Shown here piece by piece: positions 2,121 through 56,600 of a stretch of DNA of 64,000 nt. Origin of the DNA: Tubiluchus corallicola (taxonomy: Eukaryota; Priapulida; Priapulimorpha; Priapulimorphida; Tubiluchidae); contig JAQGDQ010000173.1 in the NCBI GenBank assembly GCA_030141605.1, positions 221,001-285,000 of the forward strand, written 5' to 3'. The translations under genes were made by a program, and so were the position numbers. The notes beneath the pieces were generated by a model. The model was not told the DNA's origin, ran no database searches, and saw nothing but the letters and a program-made list of their open reading frames with translations. Position 1 is the stretch's first letter. The number at the start of each line of letters is the position of its first letter.

Positions 2121-5100
2121 ATGATTGACAACATAGCTATTGCTGAGCTTACAGACGATGAACTAGTTGAAGTGCTTAAAGAGTATGGTTTTGATCCCGG
2201 ACCTATTGTAGGTATGTGCACGTAGAACACAATGTAAGCCAAAGCCAATTAAGCTATCTTTTAATTGTTGCCTCAACTGTGACTGTGATTAAAAACAGTG
2301 CAGGCTAATAGTAATTAATAATAACGTTTCGCTCTGCCCACATGCAGCAGTTTACTTTTGGGTCTGTTGTTTTGCAGTTTAAAAGTTTTGTGCCTAGTAA
2401 AAAAGAAAAATATCTGGGTCATATTTTATTAGATGACAATAGAGATGATTTAGATATATTACGACAATGTTCAATTTACTATGGTAGAGCAAATAAATTA
2501 CTCATGAAATTTACTCACTGTTTAGTTAACGTGAAGAGACAATTGTTTAATGCTTACTGCACAACTTTTTATTCTATGTCCACTTGGAGACATTTTTATT
2601 CTTACAATCTTAGCAAACTCAAGGTTGCATATAATGTATCAACACGGAAGCTGTTTAACTTTTCATATGATACGAGCGCGAGATATATTTCTACTAGACT
2701 TAATATTATTTATTTTGATGTGATTCACAGAAAATGTGCATACAGTTTACACGTCAGGCTGAATAAGAGTGAAAATTTTATATGCAAGAGCATTTTAAAC
2801 AGTGACGCAAACTTTACTTCTGTAATTAGACGTCATTGGCGTAGTTTGTTATATCGTTTATTGTTATTTGTGTTATTGTTGTGTGTCATGATTTATCATA
2901 TTATTTGTATTAATTTGTGATGTGTATATGAACTTTGTAAAGTTTGAAGTAAAATATTAAATCTAAATCTAATTTCACATATCCAAGAGTTTAGTAAATG
3001 CATTAGCAAATAAAAATTAGTTACAGTCTAGCCTCGTTATCTTGCCCCTCGTTATGCCGCCAAACTCGTCTCTCGCCATAGAAAGTACCAGGACGGATTT
3101 CCTGCTTTGATATTTACCTCGTTAAGTCGCCACCCTCGCTTCTCGCCCTCGCCACGTCATGCTAGGATGAGTGCTTATGTAAACTATATTCGTTATGTCG
3201 CCAAACAGACAAACTCAGAGGTGAATCGATCAATACATATACCGCGTGCCGATCAATATAACCGCGGTATGTAGACAATGCTGCTGTACTCGATAGACAG
3301 ACATAATTAATCTAGTGTGTGTCTCGCCAGGATTAGATTAGGAGTGCTGTGGTTGGTTAATGCGCAGAGAAACTAAAGCGTCACCGATATCCTTACTCTA
3401 TAACACCAAAGCTACATAGAGGAACACTATGTTAATCAACTATTATGTATATACATATAGACTAACTTCGTTATATTCCCGTTATCTCGCCATACTCGCC
3501 TCTCGCCAAAACTTTGCCCTAGACGTACAGTGGCGAGATAACGAGGCTAGATTGTATATATTTATTTTGGAAAAAATGTAAGTTACGCAGATTTAATAAA
3601 AATGTTTGATGTTACGTACAGTGTTAAATATATGAGTGAGACGGAAAGTTATTATATGTTAAAGGTTCTCGAGTTTTGGAATTGCAAATAGAATTTATGT
3701 ATATTTATGTTAATTTATTTCAACATGTGGAATGTCTGCCAAAATTTCCCAAACCGAAAGAAGCGAGAAATTTCAAAAAATATTTGAAAGCAATATTGCT
3801 GGCTTTTTTTACTGTAGCTACAACAAGGTCTGTGTACGAACGCAAGCTAGAGCGACTTATGACAGAAGATGCTGACAATGAAAAAAATATCAGTAATGAG
3901 GAGCAAACCAGTGACTCAAGGTATGTTGTTTCTTTTCATGAAACTTTTAGTCAAGGTTAATCAAGGGCGTATTAATCAATAGGCTAACTAGGCTATAGCC
4001 TAGTGCGCCTAGATGTGTTTGAGGGGCGTCTCATATTAGAAGATTCTTATTTTCCTCAGAAGATGTGTATACTTTCATATTCATGTAAAAGGCGCATTTT
4101 ATAGCACACCGCAGGCAGTTACTGAACACTGTTATATAAGTGCCACTTAACGAACAGGTGCAAGATATTACACAACAAGCAGTTGCATTGCGTGAATGTT
4201 AGTTCTTTGCAAATGCATGTAATTAATAATGACCACGTAGAAACTAGGTTAATAGTGTTTCCGATACACCACTAGTAATTGTTTAATCTTCTTGTTACAT
4301 GAACAATCATAAATTCACGATATAGAGATGGGCAATATAGCACCATCTGCCTTGAGCGTCGTATTCTTGATACACCCATAAGGCTAATTAGTAAAATCTG
4401 TGTGTTTTGGCCTTGCAGAAAAGGAAGCAATTTAGTTTACTGCTTAAGCAGAACAGACATGCAAGGAAAAGTAAGAAAAATTTCTTTGCTGCATGAGAAA
4501 TGTAAAAACTTTGAATGGCAATAGTTGACAATAGCATGTAACGCCTAGGACATAGTTTAATTATTCAAATTAGGCTTAACAAGATTAACTAAAATGGATT
4601 TAAAAAGAGATTAAATTGGAAAAGAATGAGATTTTGGAATAGGTATTTAGTACATTTTAGTTCTTTATGCTGTACTTTTTCAACTGTCATTTTTATTATC
4701 TAGTAGAGTTATTTACATTTTCCATTTCATCAGTTCGTATAACAAAAAATATTCTGATTTCTTGCCTCCAGATAATAGCTGTCTAAAACACCTGTTCTTG
4801 GTCACACTAATTATAATTAAATAAGTATAAAAGAGCCCATTTCGTGAATTAAATTATTCAATTCTTGAAGTCCTTGTTTGTAATTGAAAGTATACTACAA
4901 TATGACCGAAGATTGGGTTATAATTATTGATATTTTGACAGTTTGTCATTAGATGGCAGAACTGGTACATCGTTCGAATTGTATTATATTAGACGTGTTT
5001 ATTGAATAAAGGACTTCAGTGTTAGTTAAGTTGCCTCATGAAAATCTGTTTCCATTTTGGCTTGCTCTGAAAAATATTAGATAGTTACACTTAAATATCT

Positions 5101-11608: not shown

Positions 11609-12297
11609 TCTTCCAATGATTATTATAGCCATACTGCATGTTTTTAATAGCTTTGAAATACAGTATTTCTGTGTAATGTGGACATAGTTTTGTATGTGTG
11701 TACAGCAATGTTATGTGATGTGAATGCATTATATGAGAGGCGCTGCCACAACACGAGTTATTGTTGTGTCTACAGGAAAATGCATGTGAGTTGGGCACAG
11801 TTGGCCCTTCATGTGTGTCAGCATTTCTCCACTAGCATGGTCATGCCTAGAAGGTTTTCAGATTGAGGAGTACTTAGCAAATAAGTTCCTCGTGTCATGA
11901 TCCCATTTTATTGTATTTACCTGTATAACTATATATATAACACATATAGACATAATTATGCTCTTTTCTGTTTGAAAGCCCTGAGATGCTCGAATGCAGA
12001 TCTTGTATCGACTGTTGCATTAACAGTTTTTTCATTATTAATTAAATACCATATTGTTAAATTATGCAATAAAGCATCCATGAGTCTATTTATTACCACA
12101 GAACAGAGCTTTCCATTAAATTCATGTGCGATTTTACAAGACATTTCAGTATTTGCACTTCTTTGCTTTTTGTGGTGGAGGACTTTGCTTTTTGGACCTT
12201 TCGCTCTATCTTGGTGCCAACTTGTTAACCATGTAAACAAGCATTTTGGTTCTATCTTCAGTGCATCATATAGAACACTGACCGCCATTTTTCAGCC

Positions 12298-15200
12298 ATG
12301 GAAACTGGAGGTGGTGATGTTCCATCTACCGTCAAGGTGCTGAAAGGGACAATAGTGAATGCAAGATATGCTAGTCGACGAAATGTGAGTTACTAATTTG
12401 ATGTCGCATGTCATGTTATTAAGTTCGTAAAAACAACCAAATAAATTACTCAGTTGTCAGTGGGTTTATTTTTCCTAAGTCTGATAAAAAATATTCCCTT
12501 TTGGTTACTTTGTGAATAATAATAATAAATAAAGAAAATTTGCGGTTATCACAATTACAGATACAAATACACATGTAACGCTTTTCCTACATCCTCACTA
12601 ACTTTCTGGTCAAAGATTTTTTTCCAGGGGTCTGAAGTTCAAGGTCAAAACCTTGGTCAAAAGGTCATCAACTGAAAATCATCATATAGATTTGAGCTTG
12701 GATTTGGATTCTAGGTATTTTTCTGATTAAAAAAACACCTCTCACTTGAATTTTGGTGCAGTAGGTGTTGAGATATGAATTTTTGAAGTTTCAGGCGAAC
12801 GCGAAAGAGTGCGAAAAGCTCAAGTTTTCAAATTGTCATAACTTTTGAATGGGTGGACCAATTGACCTAAAATTTTGAACATAAATTATTGTCAAAAAGC
12901 CCAATAACCGTACCAAGTTTCATCAAAATACGAAATGGTCGGGGGTAGATAATCCAAAATTTTTGGTGAATTGACATGGAATGACCCTGTGGCCAAGTCA
13001 GCCATGTTTGAAATGTCTGAGGTGGCATGCAAAAAGTTGCCTGTTAATGCTTTATACATGAAAGAGCATTTTGAGGTAGGCAGTTTAGTATTTTGTTGCT
13101 CTGTGTGGTGCACCTGTGGTTGGCAATCATGCAGTCAGGGGCGTCGTGCACCAAAAAAAAATTGGGGGGCCCGACTGTATATAATGGCGGAACTTAACTG
13201 TTTAAAAAACGTATAATTTTGAATTCCCATACAGTATTTTGCGTGCAAGAAAAACGATTTATTTATTCCCAACTGGCATTTAACTTCAAGCTATAGCAAC
13301 GGAAACTTAATTAAAATTAAAAATTAAATTAAAATTTAATTAAGTATTTATTAGCTGTCAGGAATCCAAAGATTCGGCGAAAAGACATAGTAGGAGAAAA
13401 ATGATGAAATGTGCTCAAAATCACGCCCTTTTATGCAGCAAACTCCTGGGAAAGAGTCGCTAAGGAGTAGCAAAGAGTGGGCAATGTCCAATCAGGAGGT
13501 AGCTGAGCCGTGGCTCATCAATTTGTATCTCCCAAACCGACTCTCTGGTACTAGGCTAGCTCAACATGACTTCAATGTTTGCATTGTTTTCGCTCTATTA
13601 TTTCACTTATTCTCTATTATAACACACTGCTGAAGGAAGCTCGAGTGCTAACTGAGCCGTTTTGTTAATTAACAGTCTTTTGTACAAAGACGCTAATGCT
13701 ACTCAACGAGCTGGTTTGTTAACTGTTCCTGCCTGCCTCCTGAATAGATTACATGCAAACAAATTAACTACATCCTGACTTTCAGGTAAACACATCTGGT
13801 CAGGCACGTATTAACAGTCAGCATAATTTAACTCGGCGACAAACTTTAATGATAAAAAATATTATTGGGCTACTGTACCGAAACGCTCATACTGTTCGCA
13901 TTTATGGAGCGCTGGCCCGCTATTGTGTGTCAAAAAGTCAGAAATAAATTTGCTTACCGTTTGCCATTTTGACATTTTCTAAAAAATTGGGGGGGGGGGG
14001 GCTATAGCACGACGCCACTGCATGCAGTCTTTTTATGGACTTAGAACTTATCTGTGTTTGAAATTTAAGAGAAGCCTCAACAGATTTGGGAAGCAAATAT
14101 TACATAGAGATGTCTGTGATGCATTCCGTTTGTATTTACAGTGTCTTCTCTGTATAGTAACAATTCTGTCCTTTTGTTTAATATTTTGCCACTTTGATGG
14201 AATGTGAAAAACATTTTAAACATAGATAGCTTTTAAAAAAATTTGTTTTGATTTCTGAATTTAACTTATTTGATTTAATTCAAGATTACTAAATTACTAT
14301 TTTTTTCCAAACACACAACAAAACTGTATATTTCTTCAAAATTAGCGAAGATGCGCACAATCTTGTTAATGCTTTAAGCAACCTTCTAAAAGTACCGGTC
14401 ATTCATCATCCAATAAATGTGGCTGGTTGTGTGTCAGAATGTTATTTAACTCCCCATGGCAGATCTGCAATACGGATGTTCAGAACAGAACATGCTTTTT
14501 GAAGGTAGGTTTTGGTTATTCGGCAGCTCCACGTTAAGCAGAGGTCAGTAGAATCAGTAAAGTCAGTATTTCATAATCTGCACATTGTCGATCCAGATTT
14601 TATGTGGTTACGTCATGATTTTCACATTAGGGACCACATTTTGTATGTTGTCGCATAACTTACACGTTCTGGACCAACTGTGCATGCACTACTGTATAAC
14701 CTGTGCAATACAGACCCACATTTCTAGTGTTGTTACATGAGGTCACCACTTAACTACTGCATATGTTTAACATTTCTAATCAATGCATGTGTCTCAAACA
14801 GCATAAGTCATGAGATTTGTCACTGTTGCTTGGCAAACTGTTGTTATCAAATGTTGTTACTTATTAGGTATATCCCATGGATTCCACACCACGCGGCTAC
14901 TGCTTGATCATTAATAATGTTGAGTTTGATGCAAGAAAAGTAAAAAATGAGTATGACATGATAGTTGACTTCAAACCAGAAACTAGAAAAGGTTCTGATG
15001 TGGACGAAGTAAAGCTAAGGAGTCTGTTTGACCAACTGGGATATGTTGTTGACCCAACACAGTCCAATCTGACGTCTGAGGTATGATACAGGGCAGGTGT
15101 AGATACAGCCAAACTGATCAGATGAAATTTTGTTTGTTCAAGCCTCCATATGAAGTCCACATATTACATACTGAATACAGAAAGCTATAAATTGTAAAGC

Positions 15201-16888
15201 TTGTAGCACTGTTGGGTAATAATAAAACAATAGTAACTGATTACTGTAGATGCTTAGATACTGCTATCATGAAACATTAATACATTACTTTGGCTGGCCT
15301 GTAGTGTAACAAATTCTGGTTTTCATTGACTGCATTTGGTACACACCATCTGTTTTTGTTGTATAGTACAAGCATGCAGTTTTCATAATTATCAGATTTA
15401 ATTTCTCCTTATAGTTTACCTAAAATCTAAAAGTCATTTGCTGCTGTAAACTTTGGTAACTTTACATGCTGAAAATTATTTTAAGTTTTGCAGAGATGCA
15501 TCTGTAGGGAAATACATAGTTGTCTGGCAAAGCAGCAGCACCGTCACATCTCCACTTCTAAACATCGTAAATTATAGAGACCGAGTGTTAATAAGCCACC
15601 AGATTTTTTACTATTTCAATATTCTTTACAGCCAGTTTTTGTCTTCAAATACTGGATTCAGATAATTCGCTTTTTGGAACATTGAGCGGATCTTTTGATA
15701 GTATTACTGCTATTTATACTTATGCAAATTTTTGTTTCAGCAAATGCTGTCTGTCATTGAAAAGTTTGCGCAAGATACTAAGCATCTTAGTGTTGATTCA
15801 TGTGTTGTGGCAATACTAACCCATGGCAACAAAGGTGACCTGTTATTCACTAGAGATGGCCACTTGGACTTTGTTGAGCAGATTTTGCCTTTATTTAGTG
15901 GTAGGCCATTGATTATTTTAAAAGTACATATAATGGCATTGCTTAATGATAATGATATTGCTTTAACGGCATTCTTAAATAATTTACCGTAACCCGAAAC
16001 ATGGTTAAAGTACGACTGATTTTTTTCAGTTTTTGTGTCGAAGCCAAAGCTTCCCGTTTCATTAGGACACCCCTACCAGTCTAGATTTAGTTCCCGTCTA
16101 AGTATACAGGTATAGGTTTAGGGTTCACTTTATTAAATTCACAGCCCCCAACAATTGGAATAAAATAAGTGCCCAAGTAAAAATACACAAAACTATTTAT
16201 AGTTTTAAAAAGTACTTGAAAATGACCATTTTTGATTCATACTTATAATACAATTTTAATGGTTCCATGTCTCATGCAGCCCCAATATATGGCCTCCAAT
16301 CAATTATAATGCTATTTTAATATACCTCTATGTAAATTAAACATACACTGTGGTCGTTTCTTCTCCTCTTTTCCTTCTTCCTATCCCTAATCTTACTATT
16401 TTTTCCATTCCATTATTTCTTCTGACCCTAACCATTCTTTCATTCACTCATTTCTGCCACCTTAACAAGCCAAGCTTTCAAGGTGTCATACAGCAACTCT
16501 TTCATTTGGTTAATTTGACTTCATCAACATTTTTTTTTACCCATACTGTTTCTTTTTCTTCAATAATATTGAATGTTGATGTATTGTATATGTATTGCTG
16601 GAGTAAAATAAATTGATTGATTAATTCAAGGTGTTTTTATTTAAGATTCCACAGAGACGTTAAATTACTTTTATAGTTGATTTTGAGATTCATCTAACTT
16701 TTTCTCGAGTATGCGTTTAACTCATTCTACTGTGACTTAGCATTTCTTATTCTTACATATAGGATATTTGAGTAAATGCAGTGTCAATGTGCCCAGTTCA
16801 TATGCTGTACATTTATGGTGACTGAAGCCTTGAAAGTTTGATGTTTGCGATTTGATATATATATATATATACATTAATTATGTATATA

Positions 16889-16932
<44 letters not shown>

Positions 16933-19900
16933 GGTGAATGCTAAATAATGATAATAATAAATGAATTCTTAGGACGCAGTGCTGTGCATTTGTCTGGGAA
17001 ACCAAAAATATTTATCATTCAAGCTTGTCGTGGAGGTAGGTTTCTATTGTTATTTTTTATTTTTTTTGGAGTACTTTTAAACATTTATCAGTAAATTTAA
17101 TGCAGTTTCACTGAGCTATATATTGCCTTGCAAAAATAATGGGCAGTAACTACAAAATGTTGCTTTTGAGAATTGTGTGAAAAGAGAAGCAAAGCCTAAA
17201 GATACTGCTATTCAATCTGCAGTAAAAATGAAGTTACTTTACCGTTTTCATTTCTGTACACTGAAGTGGTAATTCTGATAGTCGTGCTGAGCAGTTACTG
17301 CCTATAATTCTGCAATGGAGCTAGTTTGTGCATAGCCTATGAATGGAAGTTACTTAATACACAAAAACTATCGCTTATAATAAAATTTCATAATAATAGC
17401 AAGAAAGAGCCATTTGTTGGGTAACACCTGTTCTAAATTAGTGAACTTCCTTGAGGAATTGGCTTCTAGCAGACACAAAAATGCTCTAAAATGCAGCAGA
17501 GTGCATTGTTGGATGGGGCTCCACCCTAGACCCCCCTAACTTCTTTCATACTGGGCCCACCGTTGTTCTAAAATCTGTATTCATCCCTGATTAGCCAGAA
17601 TGAATTCTGGAGACTGAATTATTCTCCCTATTCAGATGAGAGCCAGGAGCCAATTGAAGTATCCAAGCCGTCGGAGAAACGTTCATTTCCTGCTGGCGCT
17701 GATCGCGGAGACGACAAACTAACTCAAGATTCAGGGATCAGTTTAATCGCAAAGCAGAGGATGCCGCAAAAGACAAAGCAACCAAATGTTGGAAATACAA
17801 TTGTATGCCGAGCATCTGTGTCAGGTAATGTATCAATTTTATTCCCTTTTTCTTAAAAATTTAAGCATTTGCTTCTGTAACATTTGTCAAGTTAACAAAT
17901 CTTAACTCATTTAATATGTAATAAAGGAATATCGGATATGTTGCATCAGGTGAGAAGCTATTAGGATTGAATGAAGACATTTTTGATTATTAAAAGCTAT
18001 GTGGCTAATAGTATAACAAAATGTTTCACCTGTATAATCTGAAGGTGCCTGATTGAAATCCAGTACTAGTCCTGAATTTTTTCATTTCATTTTGTTCAAT
18101 CAAGCGGTTTAAAATATTTAATTCTAGAGGAGTCATTCAACCCGTGATTTATTAAACTTAGCCCATGTGTGACTAATTGATCCTTCTTTGATGCCTCTTT
18201 GATCCTTCGTGTGTGACGGAAGTAGCTGTGGCCACCGTGAAAAGAAAGTCGCATAGAGGCAGTTCTTATGGTAGTGATTCCTACCACCCCTTTACTGTCC
18301 AGGCTTGACGTTGCTTAATATCGGTCACTAAGCACTCACCTTGACCACCTGGCTGTCTCTGTCATGGTGTACTTATTAAAATAAAGGTGGTTGTGGTAGG
18401 ACCGGAATCCAGATTATCATGGCAGATAATCTTGTAAAGTGAGATGACCTGCTAAAGTTGTCTTGCCACTTCAGGTTTGTGTACTTCCTTCCTCTTTGAG
18501 GTAAATACCGTAAAGTAGTTTTCTCGATGGTCACCATTCATTTACTGGCCAGACTTTGTGTTGCTCAAGTTCAGTCATTTTTTACTTCGACACAACACAT
18601 ATTTCATATATCGTAATAATTACACAATATTTGAAGAATATTATCACCTGAGACTGAGAAACTTAATCTATTGATACATAAATGATTATTTTAAATCTTG
18701 TTCCCAACATGCCAATATGTCTCAAATCACTTTGAAGGCAGAACTCGTTAGAATGATTTGTTAGCAAAAAACGAAATATTAGAAAGAAAGAAAACAGAAG
18801 AAACAATGAATCAGTTTAGGATATAACTAGTTAAGCAGAATTTGAAAGGATTACTAAGGAGGAGTTAGTGAATGGCTGCTATGATAAAGCAATGACTCAA
18901 ACTCAAATTGTAGTGTGATTAATTATATTATATCAGGTTTTAGTTCAATGAAATTCTGTGCTGCTGTAAAGTTCACTATTTGGATCTGTATTAATAACAA
19001 TAGACTCATTAAGCTGCAATTAAGTACTGGTCCTGCTAATATGATAATGACGTATCTTCTTATGTATTAATCAAGACAAATTAAGACACTTGTTATCATG
19101 ATAATTGTTAAATTTTTCTGACTAGTAACATAATTTAAAACTTTTGATTGATATAGCAGATTTAACAGTAAGATTTAAAGTGTACCTTAATGACGTATAT
19201 GTGTACTGTAATGTGTATCCTATATATGTAATAGAATGTTTAGCCAGTTTTGATTTACAGTAAGGTAGCAAAAGTCTTGACGTAATGATAACACTGCTAT
19301 ACTACAGCTTCCTAGAGCCCCAAATGATGAAAAAATCCATTTTCATGTTACCAATTTTTCATTAGCGTTGTTTTTGGCTGTGTAGGATATGCTTCGATGA
19401 GGTCTGAAACTAGGGGTACATGGTTCATCAGAAAACTGGTGACAGAGTTTGCGCAGAATGCTAGCTGTCTACATATTCATGAACTAATGACTAGGGTGAG
19501 TTGATGCTAACGGTGCACCAGAACCGGCGAAAATTCTCCTGGCGCCCGGATCCAAAAATTCTACTAGTACATTTCAATAAATAATCCTGCATGATACTTG
19601 TTATCACTAATGCTTGATAATCAGTTCTTCACAATTAACAGCCTTCCTTAAATTTATTTTGAATAAACAGATCAGATAAGTTTTAATGAAACAAGAGATA
19701 TTTAAATTACATGATGACTAAAACGCAATGTGGGAAACCTTCGCTTGCAGTGTGCACAGGTACACGTCTGCTACATTGAGTAGAGAATAAATGTATCTTT
19801 CTGTATTTGAGGAAGCTGTGAAAAAACAGCACAGTGAACCAGTAGGAAATGAGTCCAAAATTTTAAACAAGAAACACTGTTGTCCAAAATGTTGTCCAAA

Positions 19901-22900
19901 CACGAGCTACCATCGCCAAACTATAGCTATTGCTGGTGCTATTGCAAAACAATTGTTGTCAATGGGCAGCCATTAAATATTATTAATAATAAGGGTCTTG
20001 CATTTGCTGTAGCTTAGTTTGCAGTCGTCTGTGTGATTCACTTGTTCTCATTTGTATGTTCTCACTCCTTTGTCTTTCCAGGTAAAAACAGATGCTTTTT
20101 GTCAGCATTCCCCAATCTTACAACTATTTTGGCGCGATCTGCAAGAGGAGGAACATCCTCCCAGCTGGCAGCAGTCATGCTTGACATATTTCTACAAAGT
20201 TAAAGATTTATGTTAAATGCAGTACCAATGTACACAGCATTAGGTGTAGAACTCCTTTTACTAGTTTGTTTTGAGGATCTTGGAGGTAAATAATATTCTC
20301 ACCTCAGGGTCAGAGGCCACAGCAGCAAGACCCAAACTGTGAAAATTAGGTCGAATAACTTTGTCACTCAACTGATCTTATAGTTTTAGACTAGGACCCA
20401 CTGTTATGTATATATAGGTTTTTGGGCATGTGCATTAAGAGTAGATGTGCATTAAGTATTTTTTGAAAAGTGGGCATTTGCCAGGTCACGTGACATGAGT
20501 GAAAGTGTTAAAATGGGGCCTGGTCAATAAATCCATAAGTGTAAGAACTAGAATCACGAAACTTTCAGGGGCACTTAACTTGCGCAGCTACAGAGCGGTA
20601 CAGGAGTGAGTACATATTTATTTAGGTAATCAAGTACGGAAAATTCAGTAATAGAAAAATTATGAACTTGAGACAAAGATCAAGTCAAGAAAGATTTTTC
20701 ACAGTCAGCAGTTGCAATTTTGCCATAATGCAGAATCTTAAGTTTTGACTTTGTTAATGACTAAGTTCATGACTTTGTCATAAACACGGTCTAGTATTAT
20801 TTTTCATTGCTTGCTGTTAGTACACTAACCATGCGCACTAGCTAGTGTGGCACACATTAGAACCGAAGTTGGGATAGCAACTTTTCCCCTAAGAACCAGA
20901 AAGATATTGACATGCTGAGAACAGTCTCAGATTTAAATATTCATCAAAGTGCGTTGTTTTAGGTACATCGTCAAGTGTTTGAATTGAAGGGTCGACAAGA
21001 GAGGATGTGTGCAGATGGTGCTAGCTTTGAGAAGTTTCTTGTTACTCAAGTTCCCGAATTGGAGTCTTCATTGATGACTCGACTATTTTTCAATCCACCA
21101 CTTGTAAGTGCCCAATTTCACATTGTAAGATGCATATAAGTCCTATATCACATTTTTTACTATCAATACTTGTTGCAATAGATACATTTTTGTGTATAAT
21201 ATTTAAAATTATCAATCAGCGTTTTTAAAGTTTGTTATGTAGTTTACAATTTTTCTGAACAACAGCGTTATGAAAACTGTTATCTTACTTCCTTGTAAAA
21301 TCTAAAACTGTTTAGGAAACTGGTCCAGTAGGATTAGGTGGAGCACTTGCTTACTGGCACTGGATTGGTTATCCTGCAGTTATCAAGGATGACTTTGTAC
21401 GAGAGATATCAACATGGAAAGAGAATGAAAGTTTGGAGCATGTCATCCCGAAACAAATTATTGTCTATTCACAAAGCTGTCTAGGAAGCCGTGTTTCTGA
21501 TGAAATTGGCAAGTTTAAGAAAGCTGCTAAGGTGTTTAACGTTACAAAAGATATGGCCGGTATGAAAGGTCGTAAATACGGAGTTACGGTATGGCCTATC
21601 AGGTCGGACGAGAAGAAATTCTATGTTGCAGTGGACTACCCGAGTGCTATAAAAGCCATTCCAGCCAACACTAATAATATCCGACAGCAGCTAGGAGAGG
21701 TAGCTGCATTTCACAAGACGTTGCAAGACATTGTGACACAGGAAGGTGCTGAGTCAATTCCATTTGTGTTGCTACCATATGACGATGAACAGGAGACACT
21801 TAGAGCTATCTTAAAGGAAGCTTGCAAACAGTTCGAAAAGCCTAACTTTGTCGTGGGTTCCTGTTTGAGGGGTCCAGGCACTGGCTGGGATTTTCCTGCA
21901 TGGGTGACTGAGTCAGATGCTAGTTATTTTAATCTCACTGCTGAGATGCCAGTCGGATTTCTTATAGCAGAAAGGTCTGTATGACTTTTTCCTTCAAGTC
22001 CTGTTCTAGATTGTGCAAAGTTTCTGATGACTGCTATTAAAATTTAACTTTTATAATTGTCAAATTTATAATGACATTCAACTTGTTCGTCAACTTGCAC
22101 TTTTTCTGGTACAGGTATGCTGGGCATTATTTCCACAATTATTCAATTAATCTTCAAGAGCGTTTGAATCAGTTTAAACGGCCAGGTGCACAGCAGAGTG
22201 TCGAGTCAGACAGTGATGATGACGATGATGAGGATGATGAACTGATGGAAACAGACGACCAGGTATGCAACATGTATAATCTTGCATCACTAATAGAACT
22301 GTGTTGTTTATAGTATTAGTCTCTTTTAACTGCTGTGCTAATCCAGTGACTGCACATTGTAATGAAGAGATTTTAATAGTTAAACATCTGATGTTTTTAA
22401 GCCTTTGTCTATCCAAGTTGTTTATTTTTCTAAAATGACATTGCAATGTTATTGGCACCAAAACACACAACGAACAGAACAGGAATGACAACAAGGAAAT
22501 GATTTCCAAAATCTGCATAATCCAGAAAATGTTTAAAGAACCACTGAAAAGGTTCATTTCATAGTAAATTTTATTAGAATGTATGAAGCTGAGCAAAATG
22601 GCACTGCATTGGCAGCATCTTAAGGCAAATGTGACAGTATTGGCACCTATTTTGTGCTTATAGAAGAATGTATCTGGAGGTTTCCATCCATCTAATGATG
22701 TTATTGCTTTTTTTAATTTAGGTCTTGGTTTTAATTTAGTGTATAGATTAACTGAACTTCAAGTACCAATTTACTTATATGAGGAAAAGTATAACTAAGA
22801 GAATGTTTTTTCTTTATAAATATCTTAGTAGGAGCTTTTTTGTTCAGCTAGTGAAACTATAAGTGGGAAAATCATTAGGTTTGAGCCATTTTACTTAATT

Positions 22901-23692
22901 TAAAACGAATAACTAGTAAATATCTCATTATTTATTTGTTAAAAAATTGCATACCAAGGAAAACTTCTAATGACATCTTTGGATTCAGTTGCAAGTGATG
23001 TGCTTTGCCACTACAGTTATTTTGTATGTAAACTGTGGTGACCAAGTTCAAGCTTTTGCCCTTCTAGCATTCACTGAGTTAGTGCCACCATTTTCGGATA
23101 ATTCTTCCTGACAAAAAACAGGACGCCGATTTATGATTATGGATCTTTTTTTTGAGAAAACGCAACAATGTAAGCATCTTTAGTCAATTTAACGATTTTG
23201 TTTTTTGATTTTAATTTTACTTTTTCGTAACAGGGTGTTAAATTTACTATCAACAAACTGCTGGTTCTTCTTCCGTCATCCTGTATTGTTCTTGACTCAC
23301 TGGAAAACGTAGCAGGAGTAGAAGTCATAGGCAACACAGACAGTCTACAGGGAGATTCTGCCAAGATCTTTCTTTCAGATAAGCAGAGATACGTTGGGCA
23401 CAGTACAGTATACAAGCTGGATGACGACTACTTTATTGCTGAATTTGCTACGCCATTACGTTTCCTCAGATACATGCGAGAGCATGGAGTGCTAGATGAC
23501 AGTTTGCTCAACACATTCTATGAGCAGTTCTGCATTAGACTGGAAAGTTTACTGGACGAGAACACCATATGGGAGAAAAATTTTCAAGTGGTTACTTACA
23601 ATGACATGCGCAAGACTATTGGCCCGCCGCTTGTGACCGAATTGCGTGGTATTTTTGCAGCACAGCGCTCTTGCTTGGTGGAAGGAAAATAA
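12298..23692 (+). CDS. Caspase fused to two tandem STING ligand-binding modules (~768 aa)
   Basis: Coding exons: 12298-12384, possibly 12998-13075, 14868-15080, 15741-15900, 16973-17035, 17636-17824, 19386-19495, 20963-21103, 21316-21974, 22115-22262, 23234-23692; all phases agree. Residues (second exon counted): 1-55 short prodomain; p20 from 56, with MDSTPRGYCLIINN, RKGSD, catalytic His154 in LTHG and Cys198 in QACRG; linker 201-263, with possible cleavage at TQD-S; p10 264-347, with GYASMRSETRGTWFI and the family's usual MTRLFF ending. Residues 348-566 match STING: ALAYWHWIGY (helix 1), then AGMKGRKYG and VDYPSAI, aligning with human Arg238/Tyr240 and the Glu260/Thr263 strand. Residues about 555-768 are a second STING module: RYAGHYF helix, acidic insert, KLLVLLPSSC, DKQRY, then AEFATPL. 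There is no transmembrane segment, no recognisable CARD/DED/death domain and no STING C-terminal tail. Caspases cleave after Asp; STING binds cyclic dinucleotides as a dimer. The fused function is inferred. Exon 2 is the weakest part (poor acceptor beside a repeat). Confidence 0.85.
12625..12989. repeat. Dispersed-repeat candidate in the caspase gene
   Basis: The left end CAGGGGTC and the right end ATGACCCTG are short inverted repeats. The interior (for example CCAAGTTTCATCAAAATACG) has the feel of a repeated element rather than unique intron. I find no clear target duplication. It ends nine bases before the doubtful second exon. Confidence 0.4.
13136..14020. mobile_element. hAT-type non-autonomous element, 885 bp
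   Basis: Inverted ends CAGGGGCGTCGTGC and GCACGACGCCACTG, each followed inward by a G-rich AAATTGGGGGG tract. A perfect 8-bp duplication CATGCAGT flanks it (13128-13135 and 14021-14028). It contains no recognisable transposase and lies in the intron before the first p20 exon. Confidence 0.88.
14868..17035 (+). other. Caspase p20 exons (catalytic large subunit)
   Basis: Three exons (14868-15080, 15741-15900, 16973-17035) encode the p20 core. In order: PRGYCLIINN, RKGSDVDEVKLRSLF with a LGY strand, DSCVVAILTHG with the catalytic His, then GKPKIFIIQACRG with the catalytic Cys. Both catalytic residues and the Arg residues of the P1-Asp pocket (PRG, and SMR in p10) are present, so an active protease is expected. 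The TRKGSD / NLTSE pattern is close to initiator and executioner caspases of animals rather than to metacaspases. Confidence 0.9.
16016..16622 (+). mobile_element. Degenerate LINE 3' end
   Basis: Around 16125-16245 a frame reads APNNWNKISAQVK and YSFKKYLK, the usual end of CR1/L2-type reverse transcriptase polyproteins (the 'WN.I......FK..LK' pattern), with stops and frame changes nearby. It closes with a short ATTG-type tail at about 16608-16622. It lies in a caspase-gene intron. Confidence 0.5.
20082..20216 (+). other. Possible alternative last exon of the caspase gene
   Basis: A very strong acceptor (CCTTTGTCTTTCCAG) precedes a frame that continues phase 0 from the exon ending at 19495 and gives 44 codons starting VKTDAFCQHSP before a TAA. 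Using it would yield a protein cut short inside p10, without either STING module. It could be a regulatory isoform or a cryptic site. Confidence 0.25.
21316..21974 (+). other. STING module 1 exon
   Basis: A single 659-base exon directly follows the caspase p10 end without a stop. Landmarks, with the human STING position each one aligns to by eye: IGY (Tyr167), KGRKYG (Arg238 and Tyr240), VDYPSA (Glu260, Thr263 replaced by Asp and Ser), then a long amphipathic stretch and PFVLLPYDDE, which corresponds to the strand near the lobe edge. Conservation of the Tyr and Arg that clamp cyclic dinucleotides suggests real ligand binding. The protein before it is soluble, so the usual four-helix STING membrane region has been replaced by a caspase. 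Confidence 0.82.
21945..23692 (+). other. STING module 2 (end of one exon plus two more)
   Basis: The second module starts near the end of the 21316-21974 exon (EMPVGFLIAER) and continues through 22115-22262 and 23234-23692. The first helix reads RYAGHYFHNY then INLQERLNQF, aligning with STING helix 1 with His in place of Tyr167. An acidic insert (SDSDDDDDEDDELMETDD) follows, then the core: KLLVLLPSSC, DKQRYVGHSTVYKL and AEFATPLRFL, which keeps the Glu-x-x-Thr-Pro of human STING 260-264. It ends VEGK-stop, with no TBK1/IRF3-recruiting tail. Confidence 0.82.
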
Positions 23693-34327: not shown

Positions 34328-37300
34328 TTAGCTAACTAAGTAGCCATTGAATATGCTGCATTTAGAACATGTCGAAATGGTGGCACTACTCTCATATGTG
34401 ACATAAACTTCATCTCCTGCTTCGAGATGAAGAATAGCAGAGTTTGATATCGTTTGCCACTCGCCACCTGCAACAAAATAATATTATTTTTAAGTACAAC
34501 TTGTGTAAGAGCGAATACTAATCACAAGGATGCATCAGTTTATCTTAATGTCAGGATTATTGTTAACATCACAAGCCGAGAATTTAAAAATTTTGATACC
34601 AAACTTGAAAAATAGTAAATACGAAAAAGTTATATGCAGGATGGATTTGAACTAGCGCCCTATTGCTTGCAAGGCAAACGCTCAGCACCACATTCCCTGG
34701 TGATCATGGTTATTCATTATATTACAGCTGGTTAACTAAATTAGCACTTAAAAAGTTAAAGCACACAAACTAGACAGATTTATTTTAACTAATTTGAATA
34801 TTTTTAGTTTAATTTGATTAAATATTGTTAAATTTTAGTGTTTTGTATATTGTAATGCAGACAGAATAATGATGATTGGCTGTCATGCCATAGTTGTGAC
34901 ATAGTGACTGTTTTCTAATTTTGATTGCCTCAATTTTGCAGGCTATGTAAAAACTTTAGAGGACCAACTCAATGACGTACATCATTTTAAGTGGCCTTTA
35001 CGTAACATGCAGATGCAGTTGCATTTTGGTGGATGCGGAATAGATAATATTGGTTTATATTATTTCCAAAGCATCATTTATGGAGCCTGTGGACGTGTTA
35101 TTATTTTCTCCAGCAATTCCCTATTAATTTTTTCCACAGTTCTGCAAGTAGAAAATGCATCAACATATGCATCCGATTTCTTAGAATGCCAAGTTAGACG
35201 AGACCCCTGAACTCGAACCCAGGAATAAAATGGCACAAGACTTTGTTGAAAAGACAGAATTGCAGTCTCTTGACCTCAATAGATGGTGAAGCTGAAGTGC
35301 AATTGGACACCTTTGGTCATCCTCGTCCACCTTACAGACCACATCGTACTTAACCTTGACAGTGATGAGGAAACAACGTGGAGTTTCTTTCCTGCCATCC
35401 CTCTGCCCGAAGCATCATTACTGGTCTGCAGCCCTATTCGAGAGCCTCTTTCCGAATCTAAAAATTCCATGTAGTCTTCGCCTCCTGTAAGATACACTGT
35501 AAGGTCTTACCTGTAGGACCTTAAACTGCTCGTACTGTGACCTATGATGCCCACTCCTAAACAATATGACCTCCTCGACACTAGAAGCAAAACCGGACTC
35601 AATCTTAAACTGCAGATCAAAATAATTTAATTTTTAAAATATTGAAAGAAAGCCTGCTCTTTTTTCCAAAAATTACTTACGACACAGGCATTTCGTCATT
35701 AAATTTTGCTAGATGTGTTAGTTTGTGACCAACTTCGCATGTTCGACAGCACAGCGGCAAATTTAAAATTCGTGTTTTTATCCTAAAACTTGCCTAGCTT
35801 TAGTACAACACACTGAGTATATTACAGAAGGATTGTACTTCAATTTTCGTTATGATCCCAGAGTAATCAACAAGGCAAATGATATTTGATTGGCTGCTAG
35901 GTAGTCTTTCCCAAAGTTCCCCTCTTGCCCAAAAACGGCTAAAATAAATTGGTCCTGCTAGAGTTGACTCGAACATGAGGGAACCAAATACAAATTTGCT
36001 AAAGTCTCTGCCATCTCCTGTCTGGGCTGACCAATTTGACAGAAATCAGCAGACAATGTAACCTGAGCAATCAGTTTTACTTGCGTTCACCTACCTGATA
36101 TTTCAACCAATGACAACCCCAATGAATCACTTTCCCGGTCATCTCCTTGTGAAACTGCAGCTGAACCTTTTGACTTACCAAAAACTTGCCCTAAACATTC
36201 TCGGCAACCTCCTTCTCAGGTGACTTCCGTTACTATGACCCTACAGGAAAACGTACTTGCCACCTTAAACGGCATTCCTTCTTCGATTCCTGTTGGCAGC
36301 AGTTTTTACTCAGTGAAATTACTTCAGCTGTGTAATATCATTTAAAAAACATTAATTTACTATGGCTTTGTCTGTTTTAACGTGCAAGAGCCATTACCTA
36401 GTAGCACGAATGATTTCAGTGATACTTCTTCGTAGCTCTAAGTTGTAAATATTTGTAAATTTCATGATGATGCTCACAAGCTTGATTTTCCAGACCTGCT
36501 TCCATTGGCAGATCTCGACTGAAGATCTTGAGTAAAGACACAAAATTTGCGGAAACAAAACTTCATTTTTTCTACAGGTCGGTTTTTGTATTAAAATGAT
36601 TCATCACAGCATTGAGCATTAGCTCAGTGGTGCAACTCAATGCTGTATTGCTAATTATCTTTTTTTAAGTTTTGATAAATGAAGTAATTTGCATTTAATC
36701 ATTGAAATAATGATAAACACAGTATGATGATGATGTTTATTGTGCAGGTACCGTGCTCTGCTCACTCCCTTGTTCTTCTTTAGCCTGTATGGTTATTCTA
36801 TCGATTAATTGATTTTTTACTTTATCTGTGGCTGTAACCTTTTGTTGCTCAGGTAATAAACAGATTAACGTTTTATTTTCATTTTATTTTATTTTATTTT
36901 ATTTTGTCAGATTTCACAGGCGTCGGATCTGTTCACCTGTGTGTTGCCTTTTGACTCGAGTCAAACTTGCCTACTCCAAATTCTTCCGTAAAGATACGGC
37001 ATCCGTCAATTCCGTGGGAACTGGATTTCTCCAAACCCAACAAAACTTGCCTTTTCGATACCGTAAAGGTACGGTATCCACCGGCGCCTCGTAGAGTAGT
37101 CGGATTTCCCCTAGGTATAAACCTTTCACACGTTTGGATGTAGGAACTCGAGTGGTAACATCCTGAGCAGGAGATAACCTAGGTCGCCCTCCTTTGCCTT
37201 CCCAGGAACTTTCTAAACACCATACATGAGCCTCTAATCGCCGAGCGGACTAGTTTGGCTCTGACGTTCAGAAGACCGAGTGTCTTCAGGAGAACGTCGT

Positions 37301-39593
37301 TCTCTCCTCCTGCCCATTCCCCACGAAAGCCCACACAGATGCCGTGCGACGAGGCAGTGGCAGAGCCGCACCGCTGTTTGACGGCATCGAGGATCGGTTC
37401 GTACTTCAGGGCCTTGTCCCTGCACCTGGCCCTCAGCGAGTAGATGTTTCCTGCTGCCGAGATGGTCGGATCGATAACGTACGTATGACCATCTTTGGTC
37501 GCCAGGATGTCGGGGTGGTACCTTGTTCTGTTGATCTCGAACCAAGGTTCCCTGACGACCGTAAAGCCCTGCCCCTTCAAGGCTTCGGCGAGCACCTCGC
37601 ACAGTGCATTGTGCCTTCGTGATATGGCATTGTTTACTGTTATGCACTGTTGAAGTACGTGAACCTGACTCTCTGCATGTCTCCCGCACCTGCGACATCT
37701 CCTGATTGCATTGGGTTGTCCTCTCGTGGTGTTAACTCTAACTGGTAGAGAGTTGGTGATCATCTTGAGAACCAAGATATAATCACCCCCGCTCAGGAGT
37801 GTGCTGCTACGTAGGTAATGGGTACTCAGTGGGTCAGCAGACACGGCTGCAAAACCCTTCCCATGCACTTTACCGTTGAATGCCGATAGATGTTTGCGAT
37901 CGTTATCCCTTTTTGCACGATTTATGTCTTTTGCGTTACTGTAGGCTTCGAGGCTCGCCACCCTCTTAGCCCACGCAAGCTCCCTATTCCACACTGGAGC
38001 AGATGCACTCATGTTCACCAGCGGATCTAGTGAGGCCTGCAATCGGCTGAGCATCTTGACTTTCATCAAAGGAACATCCTTTTCAAGACAAGAAAATCCC
38101 AGCCCTCCCTTCTTCATTGACATGTAGAAGAATGCATTCGGGACATCCGTCGCCATATGAAGTATACGTTTTAGGCTTGATCTTCAAAGGTTCAGTTACC
38201 AAATATTCAGGACCCATTTATCTTATAGCTTAAATAGGCTACACCGTAGGCCCCTCAAAATTGGGGAGAGCATGCTTAAAGATTTTTAGGTATATTTTTT
38301 ATTTCAGGAGGATATTTTAACTTTTTGCAACGATCTTTTGATTCATTTCAAAACTAAACTAAAATTTAAAAAGGAAGACTGAAAATGTAATTTTAAATAT
38401 AAGCAACTATTTACACTACTGTCGTGTTGAAATATGTGCTAATTTGGTTTACTATAAATAGAAAAATAGTGATAAATTTGTAAAGAATATTTTTATTGAC
38501 AAACAAAGGATAGCTCTTCTGGTTTATTTAGCACTGGGCTAGGTCTTTATTTCATCATAATCTGATCCTGAATGACACTTAAAAAACATGCTTGATTGCT
38601 TAAACTTGAACGCAAAGAGATCAACGTTAGGGCATTACACAGTGAGTGTGTGTACTTACTTATATCAATAAACGATCGATCAATGATTAATACTAGTGGT
38701 AGAGAAGACTGAATAACCTTGACTTTGTAAAAAAATCAGCTCACATTTCTTCTAATGTAATTTACACTAAGCTAATAAACAAGCAGTTGCAATCACTTTG
38801 CTTAAGCGAGAGAGTATAAATACACTTTTTGAATGCACATCTTAGTGTGGAATCACTTAAGCTTGGTCATGTTGTTGATGGTGGTGGGAGTGGTGTTGCT
38901 GCCTTTGTTGCTACTGTTGCTGTCTGGTATGCTGGTTTGTTGCTGTTGCTGTCATTGTTGATTTTGTTGCCACATTTATCTTTGAAAGTTATAGGGTGAA
39001 TGGGGGCCATTTTGTGTATGGAAAAATTTTCTGATTTGGGATGAAAAACGATTTTTTTTCAGGGAATGCCGAACGGCAATAACCTGAAGCAGTCAAATAA
39101 AAACGCTTCGACAGGACTAATTCAATGGTATTAGTTATGTCCAGATTGGATTTCCTTTTACCTCACCATGAGGGAAAAACGTACACTGTGTGTCATAGAG
39201 ACAAATAGGCCTGCTTCTGGAATTGAAATGTAGTTGCTTGCAACGCATCAGATGAAAGATCTCCATGAGGCGGACTGAGTGGTAAAACTTGAAAGGCGAT
39301 TAGTTGATCTTTGATACTTGGTTGCAGATTGACCATGGTATAGTTTGGCAACCAAACAAGGCAAATTCAATAAGCTCAAAATGATGGCTTTCAAACAAAA
39401 TGCTTACGACATTTCACGATCAAACACTGTAAATGTTCATTGCAAAGAATGATTGTCAACTTGTTTGTTTTTAAATTTAGTTTGATTTTTATACACAATA
39501 ATATTACCGAACTAATATCATTTCCTTCATAAATTACCTTTATGAACAAATACTGAATAAATGGCATAAAAGCGAAGATCTTGACTACCAACT
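34328..39593 (-). CDS. TNF-like ligand, C-terminal part of the TNF homology domain
   Basis: Three minus-strand exons join in phase: 39593-39538, 39274-39167 and 34467-34328 (stop TAA 34330-34328). Together they give about 101 residues. The first encodes QDLRFYAIYSVFVHK, matching the 'Y.IYSQV.F' strand of TNF ligands. The second has two to three cysteines (RCKQ, PICLYDTQCTF) of the kind that form the loop disulfide. The last reads ISNSAILHLEAGDEVYV then SIFNGYLVS-stop, matching the 'GGIF.L..GD.i.V … SFFGAFLV' ending of TRAIL-like ligands. C1q proteins share this fold and end similarly, but the IYS strand favours TNF. TNF ligands are trimeric type II membrane or shed cytokines. The N-terminal exons (cytoplasmic tail, membrane segment, first strands) are not identified to the right. 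The last intron (4.7 kb) hosts an R2-type LINE. Confidence 0.68.
34627..34735 (-). repeat. tRNA-Ala(TGC)-like SINE or tRNA pseudogene
   Basis: On the minus strand GTGGTGCTGAGCG (A-box-like), a TTGC-CTTGCAA-GCAA anticodon arm with TGC at the anticodon, and CTAGTTCAAATCC (B box) occur at tRNA spacing. The acceptor stem does not pair well, so this is more likely a SINE head or pseudogene than a working tRNA. Confidence 0.45.
34900..36870 (+). pseudogene. Decayed open-frame fragments, origin unknown
   Basis: Two stretches keep protein-like composition on the plus strand. One is 35290-35470 (HIVLNLDSDEETTWSF…). The other is 35950-36345, where VDSNMREPNTNLLKSL is followed, after frame changes, by NESLSRSSPCETAAEPFDL and LQENVLATLNGIP. 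Stops and shifts separate them and no splice sites fit. They look like an old retroelement or pseudogene in the TNF-like gene's intron. Confidence 0.25.
36880..38160 (-). mobile_element. R2-type LINE, 5'-truncated, 3' half intact
   Basis: A minus-strand frame (38156-37179, 325 aa) has the C-terminal half of an R2-clade protein. After an RT thumb-like start (KKGGLGFSCLEKD) come ITNSLPVRVNTTRGQPN, then a CCHC zinc knuckle (CRRCGRHAESQVHVLQQC: C-x2-C-x7-H-x4-C), then a restriction-like endonuclease with RYHPDIL and YVIDPT carrying the PD…D core and a downstream KALKYE. The 3' UTR runs to an AAAAT repeat tail (minus strand, about 36905-36880). The RT catalytic domain is missing. No rDNA surrounds it. 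The frame is undamaged, so the copy is fairly young. It lies in the last intron of the TNF-like gene. Confidence 0.9.
38161..39166. other. Intronic DNA with simple repeats
   Basis: AT-rich, with a TGG/TTG/TGC-rich simple stretch at 38874-38960. A ~21-base string around 38430 (AATATGTGCTAATTTGGTTT) recurs near 63110, so a dispersed repeat end may be present. No gene was seen. Confidence 0.3.
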
Positions 39594-53631: not shown

Positions 53632-56600
53632 TCAAGCAAAAATTTCTTCAATATCCAGAGCCTGACTATTTTTTCTTGACTGTCGACGTCTCATTCGAGC
53701 TTGCTTGATTTGATTGAATCGTGTGAGTGAAGACACTCGCTTGGCTATGTACTCTGCAATGTCGTAATGTCGTTTATGTTTCATCTTCTTCACCATGGAG
53801 TCGTACGAATGCATAAGAAGTACCTTGAATATACCCAACACGTATACGAGGACGAAAGTCATGTAAATGGTGAAAAAGAGCGGGCCAAGTTTCGAATGAG
53901 CAGCATCGAAAACGCTGAACTCTCCACCTCGCACGATCATGTTAAACAAAGTTTCAAGACTCAAAATGAATGTAGTGAATTGCCTCGCTTCCAGACCAAA
54001 TACTAACATCCCAAACATTGCAAACGGTAGTAAGGTAAAAAGCAGAAACAAACAAAAATGCAACAGCGGTTTTATCGACAGCGCTAGACTGAAAAAATAC
54101 ACTGACATCATACGGTTAAAGATGAGAACATGCCACAGTTTGATGGTTACCAAGATGACCAACCACGCCAACCCACCCGTCAGCGAGAAATCTAACAAAG
54201 CGGCTTCATAGAAGCTGATGAACACAGATTTATCATTTTCGGAGTACCGCTCTAGTAATTTTCTCACGACTATCGCCTTCTTTGTGAACAAGATGATGCA
54301 TACGGTGGATAGCAGCACAATGACAAGCTCCACCCAGTTCCAGAATTTGCTGAAGTATTCCATTCGTTTATTATAAATCTTCTTGACTTCACGGTAGATG
54401 AAAATAAGCAGAAGCAAGACATAGATCACCTCGCTTGCAAGTAGAGACAAAGCATTCGACTGAACGTACTTGTATAGGTTCAGAGTGAATATGGACTGAT
54501 AGGGGAAAATTCCACCTGTCCCGTGGAACTCCACCATCAGATTGACGATGCTGAATAGCTGTGAATTAACACTGAAGAGAGTGAATTCGATCATCACAAC
54601 ACGAGTTTGGTCATCGATCCAGCGCGAGTTAATCAGGTGGTTGAATATTTGTCTGTTTACGGTCGTGTTGCGTGTTAGTTCTTGTACGTAGCCTCCGCCA
54701 CTGTACAGAGCAAAACGACCTGCGAAAATAATCAATAATTAGACAATAATAACCATTTTCACAGATCCACTGATTGATGAAGATCGTGAAAAAGTCAAAG
54801 GTTAAGTGAACCTACCAACATTATCCAGACCAAACAACGCATTTGTTTACACTTGATAATGCCTCGAGACCCACGGTGTTGTAATAGTAATAGTTGTTGG
54901 AGTTAATCTAAGTCATAATTAAGCGTAATTTTGACGGTAATAATACGAGCAGCACATTTTTCAAACATTTTAACTGTTTACATAAGAATGACGGCAGTTA
55001 AATTATTCATCTTTGCATCAAGTGCTATGCAGAGTATCCAAATAAACCGCAAACCATACTTACCAAATAGGACAGCTGATAAACTTGTATTTCTGCTTTG
55101 ACACCTGGTGATGAAAATGAACAATATTTAAGATTACTTGCCTACTAATGGCAAAGTCTGTAACTCTGTAGTTGATTGGAAAGTCCACTTATCGGGAGGA
55201 TACCTCGGGTACTGTCGGTAGCGCCACCCGGAACGGTACGATACCTTATCCTGCAGCGGCCAGTAATAGTTTCCGACACACCGCCGTCCAAATGGCTGTA
55301 CTATCTGAGGAGGTTTACACAAACCTAAAGAGCAAATTTGCCGAGAAATGAAATCACCTTATTACAATAATTCCGACTTTGTAATCTTTCCTTTTTGTAA
55401 TAACAAGTTAAAAATGTTTTATCATGAACAATCAACGACGTCTCAAGCAAATGTGACCTGCACATTGTAATTGTTGTAAACTGAGAAGTTTTTTGAAGTT
55501 TTAACTAAAAGTAACGACACGAAATAGTATGACAAAATACTGGGTTTTGTGAACAAGTGGAACACCCACATACAGGAGGCACCAAAAAACCTTTCTTCAC
55601 ATATAACAGGTTTTAGACTTGTATTGTAATCAATGATTTTTATTAAAAACAAAAAGAATACAAGAAAATTTTAACTGCCCATTATGAAAAAAGGAGAGCC
55701 AAATGATTCCAGTTATGATTGGCTGACAGTTAAGTAATATAACTTAGTAACTTACACAAAACATGTCACTTATATTGAGTCAACATATTGAAGTACTATT
55801 GTACAGCTTAAGTAAAAACCTTTAGTTACACGAAGTTGTCTAAGTCTGACCACACCCACAAGCCAGGTGGAGGAGTCACGGGTGAATCCAGGAGCAACTG
55901 GATCACTATTATTATCCATGTTTTCCACAAATAAACTCGGTTCTAATGTGTTTAATAAGTAATCCCACATACTATCAACATCTTTTATCTAAAAGAAAAA
56001 TTAACAAAAAAATCAGAAGAAGTTTTGAACTAAAATGGAAGAAAACAGAATTTACATTTTACTTGGATGATTTAAATTAGGTGTCTTAGTTTTAGAGTAA
56101 TGGTGAAATGTAGGTATTGTAAATACTTTATTGTGGTACATTACACTAAGCATGTGGTACAACCTGCTGTTAAAAATTTGATACTGTAATGTAGAGACAG
56201 AATTCTCTTTAAACCATGAATTTTGAAAAGCAATTTTATTTCATTCACAGAAAAGCTTCCACTGACACTTAATGTTTCACTTTTCTCTGTTTAGGTCACG
56301 CAAGTTATGAATGCAAAGCTCTGGGTTCAAATCTTGCTTTCTTCATAATTTTCCAGCACCTTTCTTCTCAGTAAATTAGCTATTAGATTAATGATTGTGA
56401 GTAGTGATGCTTCTCTTAATGAGGGAACATGAAATAATAACGAAGTAAAACCTTCTGTGTTTGTAAAATCATTAAGACTTCTATCCAGCATTAGGCATTT
56501 CATAAATAAGAAATAAAAATCTTCCATTTCGAGAAGCCTTTGTAATTGTGGTGCAAATAACTCGAGGCATTGATTAACCAAGTTTCCGCTAAGAGCATAA

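Follow-up and report, generated by a model that had tools for sequence, protein, structure and literature searches.

Does the genome of the priapulid Tubiluchus corallicola encode a caspase that continues, within one polypeptide, into two STING modules? The question was raised by a stretch of 64,000 nucleotides (GenBank assembly GCA_030141605.1, contig JAQGDQ010000173.1, positions 221,001 to 285,000; hereafter the window), in which an original prediction, made from the letters alone, placed such a gene on the forward strand at 12298–23692. We found that this interval contains 10 exons and 9 GT-AG introns, whose matching phases (0,0,1,1,1,0,0,2,0 at the intron ends) give a single open reading frame (ORF) of 742 amino acids (aa). 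A TAG stands in frame at 12271, 9 codons 5′ of the ATG. The protein reads caspase, STING module 1, STING module 2, and the predicted union of these parts in one frame is borne out by the in-phase exons, by one match to the Pfam family PF00656 and two to PF15009, and by recurrence of the arrangement across a family. The caspase-STING-STING architecture is confirmed as that of a real, conserved gene family.

The caspase match covers residues 38–316 (PF00656, E 5.9e-44, 150.9 bits against a cut-off of 21.4), and sequence matches of this part in the PDB include CED-3 and caspases 2, 3, 8 and 9. Exon 1 (12298..12384, +, as are all exons of the gene) supplies the start codon and a short N-terminus; an ATG-led first exon was modelled likewise in four further copies in the same genome, C414, C235, C1844 and C2192, which are taken up below. 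Caspase p20, with the motif PRGYCLIINN and the Asp-pocket residue Arg69, is encoded by exon 2 (14868..15080), followed by the catalytic His128 within LTHG in exon 3 (15741..15900) and the catalytic Cys172 within QACRG in exon 4 (16973..17035). Exon 5 (17636..17824) holds the intersubunit linker, with Asp at 197, 200, 201 and 206, and the beginning of p10, which continues through Arg243 in exon 6 (19386..19495) and ends with LFFNPPL in exon 7 (20963..21103). The histidine, the cysteine and the full p10 that had been read from the sequence are therefore all present. The Asp-pocket Arg-Gln-Arg set comprises Arg69, Gln170 and Arg243, positions placed by their caspase-3 equivalents, and the retained catalytic and Asp-pocket residues predict an Asp-specific caspase.

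The p10 end passes straight into STING module 1, without a linker. Exon 8 (21316..21974) encodes module 1 (AYWHWIGY...DMAGMKGRKY...DYPS) and an inter-module tail, exon 9 (22115..22262) the helix alpha1 of module 2 and a polyacidic loop, and exon 10 (23234..23692) the remainder of module 2 and the stop codon. Each module was scored alone against PF15009, for which the curated cut-off is 27 bits; exon 8 reached 40.3 bits (E 2.8e-10) and exons 9 and 10 together 40.7 bits (E 2e-10). As a single sequence, module 1 matched the PDB entries 8ydn (E 9.7e-6) and 6wt6, a TIR-STING of metazoan origin (E 1.5e-5), improving to 8.4e-11 and 2e-12, respectively, by family profile. Module 2 gave weak single-sequence matches (8gjz, E 0.055; 8efm, E 0.056) and profile matches of 1.9e-7 and 2.1e-7. 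Both modules thus match STING by profile, as proposed for the tandem part; the span of 348–768 assigned to it was not correct, the bounds being approximately 321–538 for module 1 and 539–742 for module 2.

Scanning the whole genome (343,548,820 bases, 2344 contigs) with the STING profile returned 22 exon-level matches, 10 of which formed five pairs, one being the window gene; the other 12 lay elsewhere. Searching the genome exon by exon with a caspase profile proved insensitive, giving 11 matches of which one fell in the family (C235) and none on the window's own exons, and tblastn was therefore used for the caspase parts. With the window protein and a related protein, P0001, as queries, it placed caspase parts in order around each of the four other pairs. 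These four loci share the ten-exon structure in stop-free frames; a TGA reported inside the C235 caspase match is intronic, just past the exon 2 donor. The models were guided by the window exons, with C2192 (loci L016-L017) worked out by hand; they measure 745 aa (C414), 729 aa (C235), 753 aa (C1844) and 661 aa (C2192), and their identity to the window protein is 92%, 88%, 80% and 47%, in that order. In C414 and C235, corresponding introns and flanking sequence are for the most part 83–95% identical to those of the window gene, and all three may represent recent duplicates or divergent haplotypes. Three classes are clearly distinct, namely the window group, C1844 and C2192. The ratio of nonsynonymous to synonymous change (dN/dS), calculated per module by the Nei-Gojobori method for the window against C1844, was 0.24 in the caspase, 0.24 in STING module 1 and 0.17 in module 2; synonymous sites were saturated in most comparisons with C2192.

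The same genome also holds a second class of STING, apparently tandem, at L018-L020 (C460:509157-525694, +), L021 (C818:25883-27723, −) and L023 (C1326:8227-8583, −). Its exons join one module's end to the next module's alpha1 helix, GLAWSYYLG[FY]L[RK]IILPG, and tblastn found no caspase match within the stretches fetched around them. Nine TIR_2 matches were detected in the genome, none on contigs carrying STING loci.

To look beyond this genome, we ran three protein searches, each length-bounded and seeded by shared 5-residue words. Run as a single sequence against 6196 candidates, the STING part yielded one protein at E <= 1e-3; this is P0001 (655 aa), in which the domains follow in the same order. 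With a profile, five of 7632 candidates reached E <= 10, namely P0001 and four 'uncharacterized' proteins of Priapulus caudatus, and a wider profile returned the same five among the best 8000 candidates. In Priapulus, P0003 (LOC106806933) and P0005 (LOC106806925) run from a caspase into two STING stretches, while P0004 begins inside p10 and P0002 at the p10 end, each with two STING stretches. In the aligned family sequences module 1 follows immediately on FNPP, and the Priapulus proteins share the acidic loop of the window protein. They differ from it in that P0003 and P0005 are only 29–37% identical to the T. corallicola family and P0001, and in that isoform X2 of LOC106806933 (P0003) lacks the QxCRG stretch. 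The search for the same architecture in relatives thus found it in P0001 and in two Priapulus proteins. Because ten exon counterparts recur in order at four loci, and the same order is found in these three proteins, the architecture is beyond chance; we likewise rejected a gene-fusion artefact, given the four further genomic copies, P0001 and Priapulus.

P0001 reads through the caspase and both STING modules in one uninterrupted ORF on a 2188-nt contig. It is 74% identical to C2192, which has nine introns over approximately 11 kb. Most simply, P0001 would stem from an mRNA that was spliced in a related species. A retrocopy without introns is a possible but less simple source, and with either origin a single frame takes in the entire architecture.

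Comparison across the family separated two kinds of caspase. The window protein, C414, C235 and C1844, four of four, retain both catalytic residues (His and Cys), the Gln that precedes the Cys and the two pocket arginines, as does Priapulus P0005. C2192 and P0001 (2/2) retain the Cys and lack the catalytic His, both pocket arginines and the Asp-containing linker; this lineage is probably a dead regulator. Since one lineage is without the catalytic His, the role of direct executioner cannot hold throughout the family. The STING pair appears to be old. Inside one protein, modules 1 and 2 are 24.6–25.9% identical over 55–162 positions (C1844, C2192, P0001 and P0005; the corresponding alignments for the window protein and P0002 covered 3 and 5 positions and were not used). 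Between proteins (window versus P0001, C2192 and P0005), module 1 is 32–51% and module 2 42–55% identical. Because the modules of one protein are less alike than their counterparts between proteins, the doubling of STING probably predates the split of these lineages.

We then compared the ligand pockets, using human STING residue numbers and, for module 2, placements made by hand. In module 2, residues like Y167, R238, E260, T263 and P264 are kept in all ten family sequences, and the Y163 place is Y in eight and F in two. In module 1, a Y240-like Tyr, an Asp at the E260 place and S or T at the T263 place are found in 10/10; the R238 place is R in six and K in four, and the Y167 place Y in four, F in two and L in four. 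Conservation of the pocket is only partial, module 1 having no R232-like arginine, and the two modules differ consistently in pocket residues in every one of the ten sequences.

These features led us to favour, with more confidence than doubt but well short of certainty, a soluble, cyclic-nucleotide-activated immune receptor-protease, in which a predicted Asp-specific caspase carries a C-terminal STING pair as its activation domain. Caspases are activated by proximity and are active as dimers, and known STINGs are homodimers. Because the window protein has no Pfam match to CARD or DED, and a plain hydropathy scan found no membrane anchor (the highest 19-residue mean, 1.62, lies within module 2), the STING pair is the sole candidate for a switch, and would take the place of an N-terminal CARD or DED. 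We propose that a cGAS-like enzyme makes a cyclic nucleotide, which the STING pair would bind, probably at the interface of modules 1 and 2 within one chain. Ligand-bound pairs would then stack, like STING and TIR-STING dimers, so that caspase domains meet, cut their own Asp-containing linkers and then cleave targets, with cell death or NF-kB-like signalling as the outcome. An adapter could be dispensed with, as module 1 starts right after the p10 FNPP, and the His-less lineage (C2192, P0001) would be a partner with a regulatory role. Ligand binding, caspase activity and the intrachain pairing of the modules are predictions, and so is the one-step route by which a cyclic dinucleotide would lead to proteolysis, plausible though it is. 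A ligand source within the genome is also possible: cGAS-like enzymes belong to the Mab-21 family, and we found nine putatively cGAS-like Mab-21 matches (on C162, C716, C1992, C1560, C918, C2143 and C831, and two on C2100), of which eight lie in open frames 465–904 aa long. Published work offers precedents for the stacking step: STING is described as dimeric, with oligomerisation triggered by cyclic dinucleotide binding (PMC13144350), and bacterial TIR-STING as forming filaments (PMC8204762). A bolder version, which we put forward tentatively, is that the tandem is a covalent, asymmetric intrachain receptor for an asymmetric cyclic nucleotide, a STING equivalent of the fused CARF pair in SAVED, directly switching the caspase, with the conserved dead paralogue (C2192, P0001) regulating it in the manner of cFLIP and caspase-8.

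Several observations weigh against the receptor-protease reading. In module 1 the R232 place is M, L or V, with an R232-like arginine in none of ten sequences, and the Y163 place is His in all ten; because of these two substitutions, the ligand may differ or binding may be lost. Loss of the catalytic His is tolerated in the family, as C2192 and P0001 show. Constraint between recent copies is weak, dN/dS being 0.48 for window-C414, 0.72 for window-C235 and 0.73 for C414-C235; for STING module 1 it rises to 1.27 between the window and C414 (5.5 synonymous and 23.5 nonsynonymous changes) and 1.08, from few changes, between C414 and C235. Such high ratios may reflect either relaxed constraint or rapid immune evolution. 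Exon 9 of C1844 has no GT donor at the expected place, and a GC donor was assumed. An AlphaFold model of the tandem modules (P0002, 7 alignment rows) was poor, with a mean predicted local distance difference test score (pLDDT) of 42.0 and low-confidence matches to STING folds; a model of P0001 made without an alignment (mean pLDDT 32.1) was discarded.

Among the alternatives, the one that survives best, although we consider it unlikely overall, is that modules pair in trans, 1 with 1 and 2 with 2, between chains, so that the fusion would dimerise two caspases, either constitutively or when induced by ligand, with no intrachain pseudo-dimer. The homodimeric habit of STING and the dimeric state of active caspases fit such pairing, and the polyacidic loop of module 2 in the window protein and Priapulus, which is short in C2192 and P0001, could restrict packing within a chain. 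Retention of two modules with consistently distinct pocket residues in 10/10 sequences would instead suit an asymmetric intrachain pair. Less probable still is a STING pair that binds no nucleotide and serves as a scaffold or localisation module, with the caspase activated by partners or concentration and the fusion serving assembly. The arginine and His substitutions in module 1 speak for it, as does the F or L found at the Y167-like position in six of ten sequences; against this, all ten sequences keep the R/K238-, Y240-, D/E260- and S/T263-like residues in module 1 and, in module 2, five out of six tabulated positions, even though the T. corallicola family and P0001 share only 29–37% identity with P0003 and P0005. 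Finally, that a caspase gene and a neighbouring tandem STING gene were wrongly merged in the model is very improbable: separate caspase-only or STING-only transcripts are compatible with the genomic sequence taken alone, and Priapulus P0002, perhaps a partial model, starts at the very end of p10, but the phase-0 junction is identical in five genes of the genome, P0001 is uninterrupted, P0003 and P0005 show the same fusion, FNPP directly abuts module 1 in the aligned sequences, and the junction intron (21104–21315) is free of AATAAA and ATTAAA, several other introns of the gene containing AATAAA. The original prediction had named as its undoing a caspase mRNA ending near the junction and a separate STING mRNA, or a tandem part without structural likeness to STING; at the level of sequence, with RNA of the species outside the material covered, neither was seen: P0001 spans all parts, the junction intron carries no poly(A) signal, both modules match STING by profile, and the low-confidence model of P0002 matches STING folds as well.

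The inter-module tail matched no family in Pfam or NCBIfam. When prokaryotic sequences (genome_contigs) were scanned using the family profile, 56 pattern matches emerged, one of which encoded a relative by tblastn, at L001; its ORF is probably a bacterial phosphoenolpyruvate (PEP) synthase and not a STING, although no family search was aimed at it. The same profile gave 197 pattern matches and no relatives in viral_contigs. The window tail (21772–21972) resembles the C-terminus of this PEP synthase (L001:5001-5210; 37.0 bits, 29% identity over 70 aa), above the 29.3 bits of the best window hit to 500 shuffled versions of that enzyme. The P0001 tail reached 19.2 bits against that C-terminus, and the four Priapulus tails align best elsewhere in the enzyme; the likeness is perhaps chance. 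NCBIfam returned no family for four queries and PADLOC none for two window exons, and PADLOC matches of P0001 to Cas5g (E 0.0087) and of P0005 to PDC-S02 (E 0.04) were taken as chance. Elsewhere in the window, 53638–54738 (−) is an exon of a polycystin cation channel (PF08016, E 7.4e-37; PF20519, E 1.4e-18). Two ORFs gave matches that stay under the cut-off: a long one at 37185–38183 (−) to zf-RVT (E 0.0022), perhaps a retroelement, and one at 3640–3957 (+) to the LEM domain (E 2.5e-4).

The nearest known design is TIR-STING of bacteria and oysters (6wt6), in which a STING ligand-binding domain likewise carries an effector; the alignment of module 1 with 6wt6 spans 156 profile positions. Here, in contrast, the effector is a caspase, with no TIR match in the window protein (maximum E 5), and each chain carries two STING modules. 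Both modules match PF15009, the animal-type ligand-binding domain, as in canonical animal transmembrane STING, from which the window protein differs in lacking a hydrophobic anchor, in its caspase N-terminus and in its tandem modules. A third comparison, with SAVED effectors, involves CHAT, a caspase-like protease. SAVED is described as two fused CARF domains that accommodate asymmetric ligands as well (PMC8204762), and SAVED effectors including SAVED-CHAT likewise combine two fused sensor domains with a protease driven by cyclic nucleotides (PMC8204762, PMC11417357). The sensor fold is unrelated and the context is bacterial CRISPR/CBASS, making this an analogy and not homology; Pfam matches of the whole window protein comprised caspase and STING only, with no SAVED domain. 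In the Drosophila STING-FADD-DREDD route, as outlined in PMC13144350, activated STING oligomers also engage a caspase, but FADD bridges STING and DREDD there, as opposed to a single polypeptide here. STING joined to a single effector enzyme is reported from bacteria, with hydrolase, trypsin or deoxyribohydrolase domains (PMC10732462, where fusions to TIR and transmembrane parts are described too), and from fungi, as PNP-STING (PMC12424679); in the main text of these two papers caspases go unmentioned and 'tandem' refers only to mass spectrometry. The main text of a study of animal cGLRs and coral STING describes transmembrane STINGs and does not contain the word caspase (PMC9980059). Among the literature matches listed, with subscription papers mostly outside their scope, none describes a caspase-STING or tandem-STING animal protein, in line with the original prediction, which could name no described caspase-STING-STING protein; the Priapulus sequences are public but uncharacterized, and no literature was found linking Priapulus caudatus to STING and cGAS. 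STING-effector fusion is therefore already known, and the caspase and the covalent STING pair are the two new traits.

STING of animals has been described for the most part as a membrane-bound adaptor by which kinases or FADD are recruited. This family suggests that animals, like bacteria, built one-protein switches from alarm to protease, and that the fly-type route from STING to caspase can be hard-wired. It raises the questions of what ligand the covalent STING pair binds, whether a nucleotide alone fires the caspase and what role the His-less paralogue plays. If the asymmetric-receptor version of the receptor-protease reading is true, these genes would constitute a complete animal family of cyclic-nucleotide-gated cell-death proteases.

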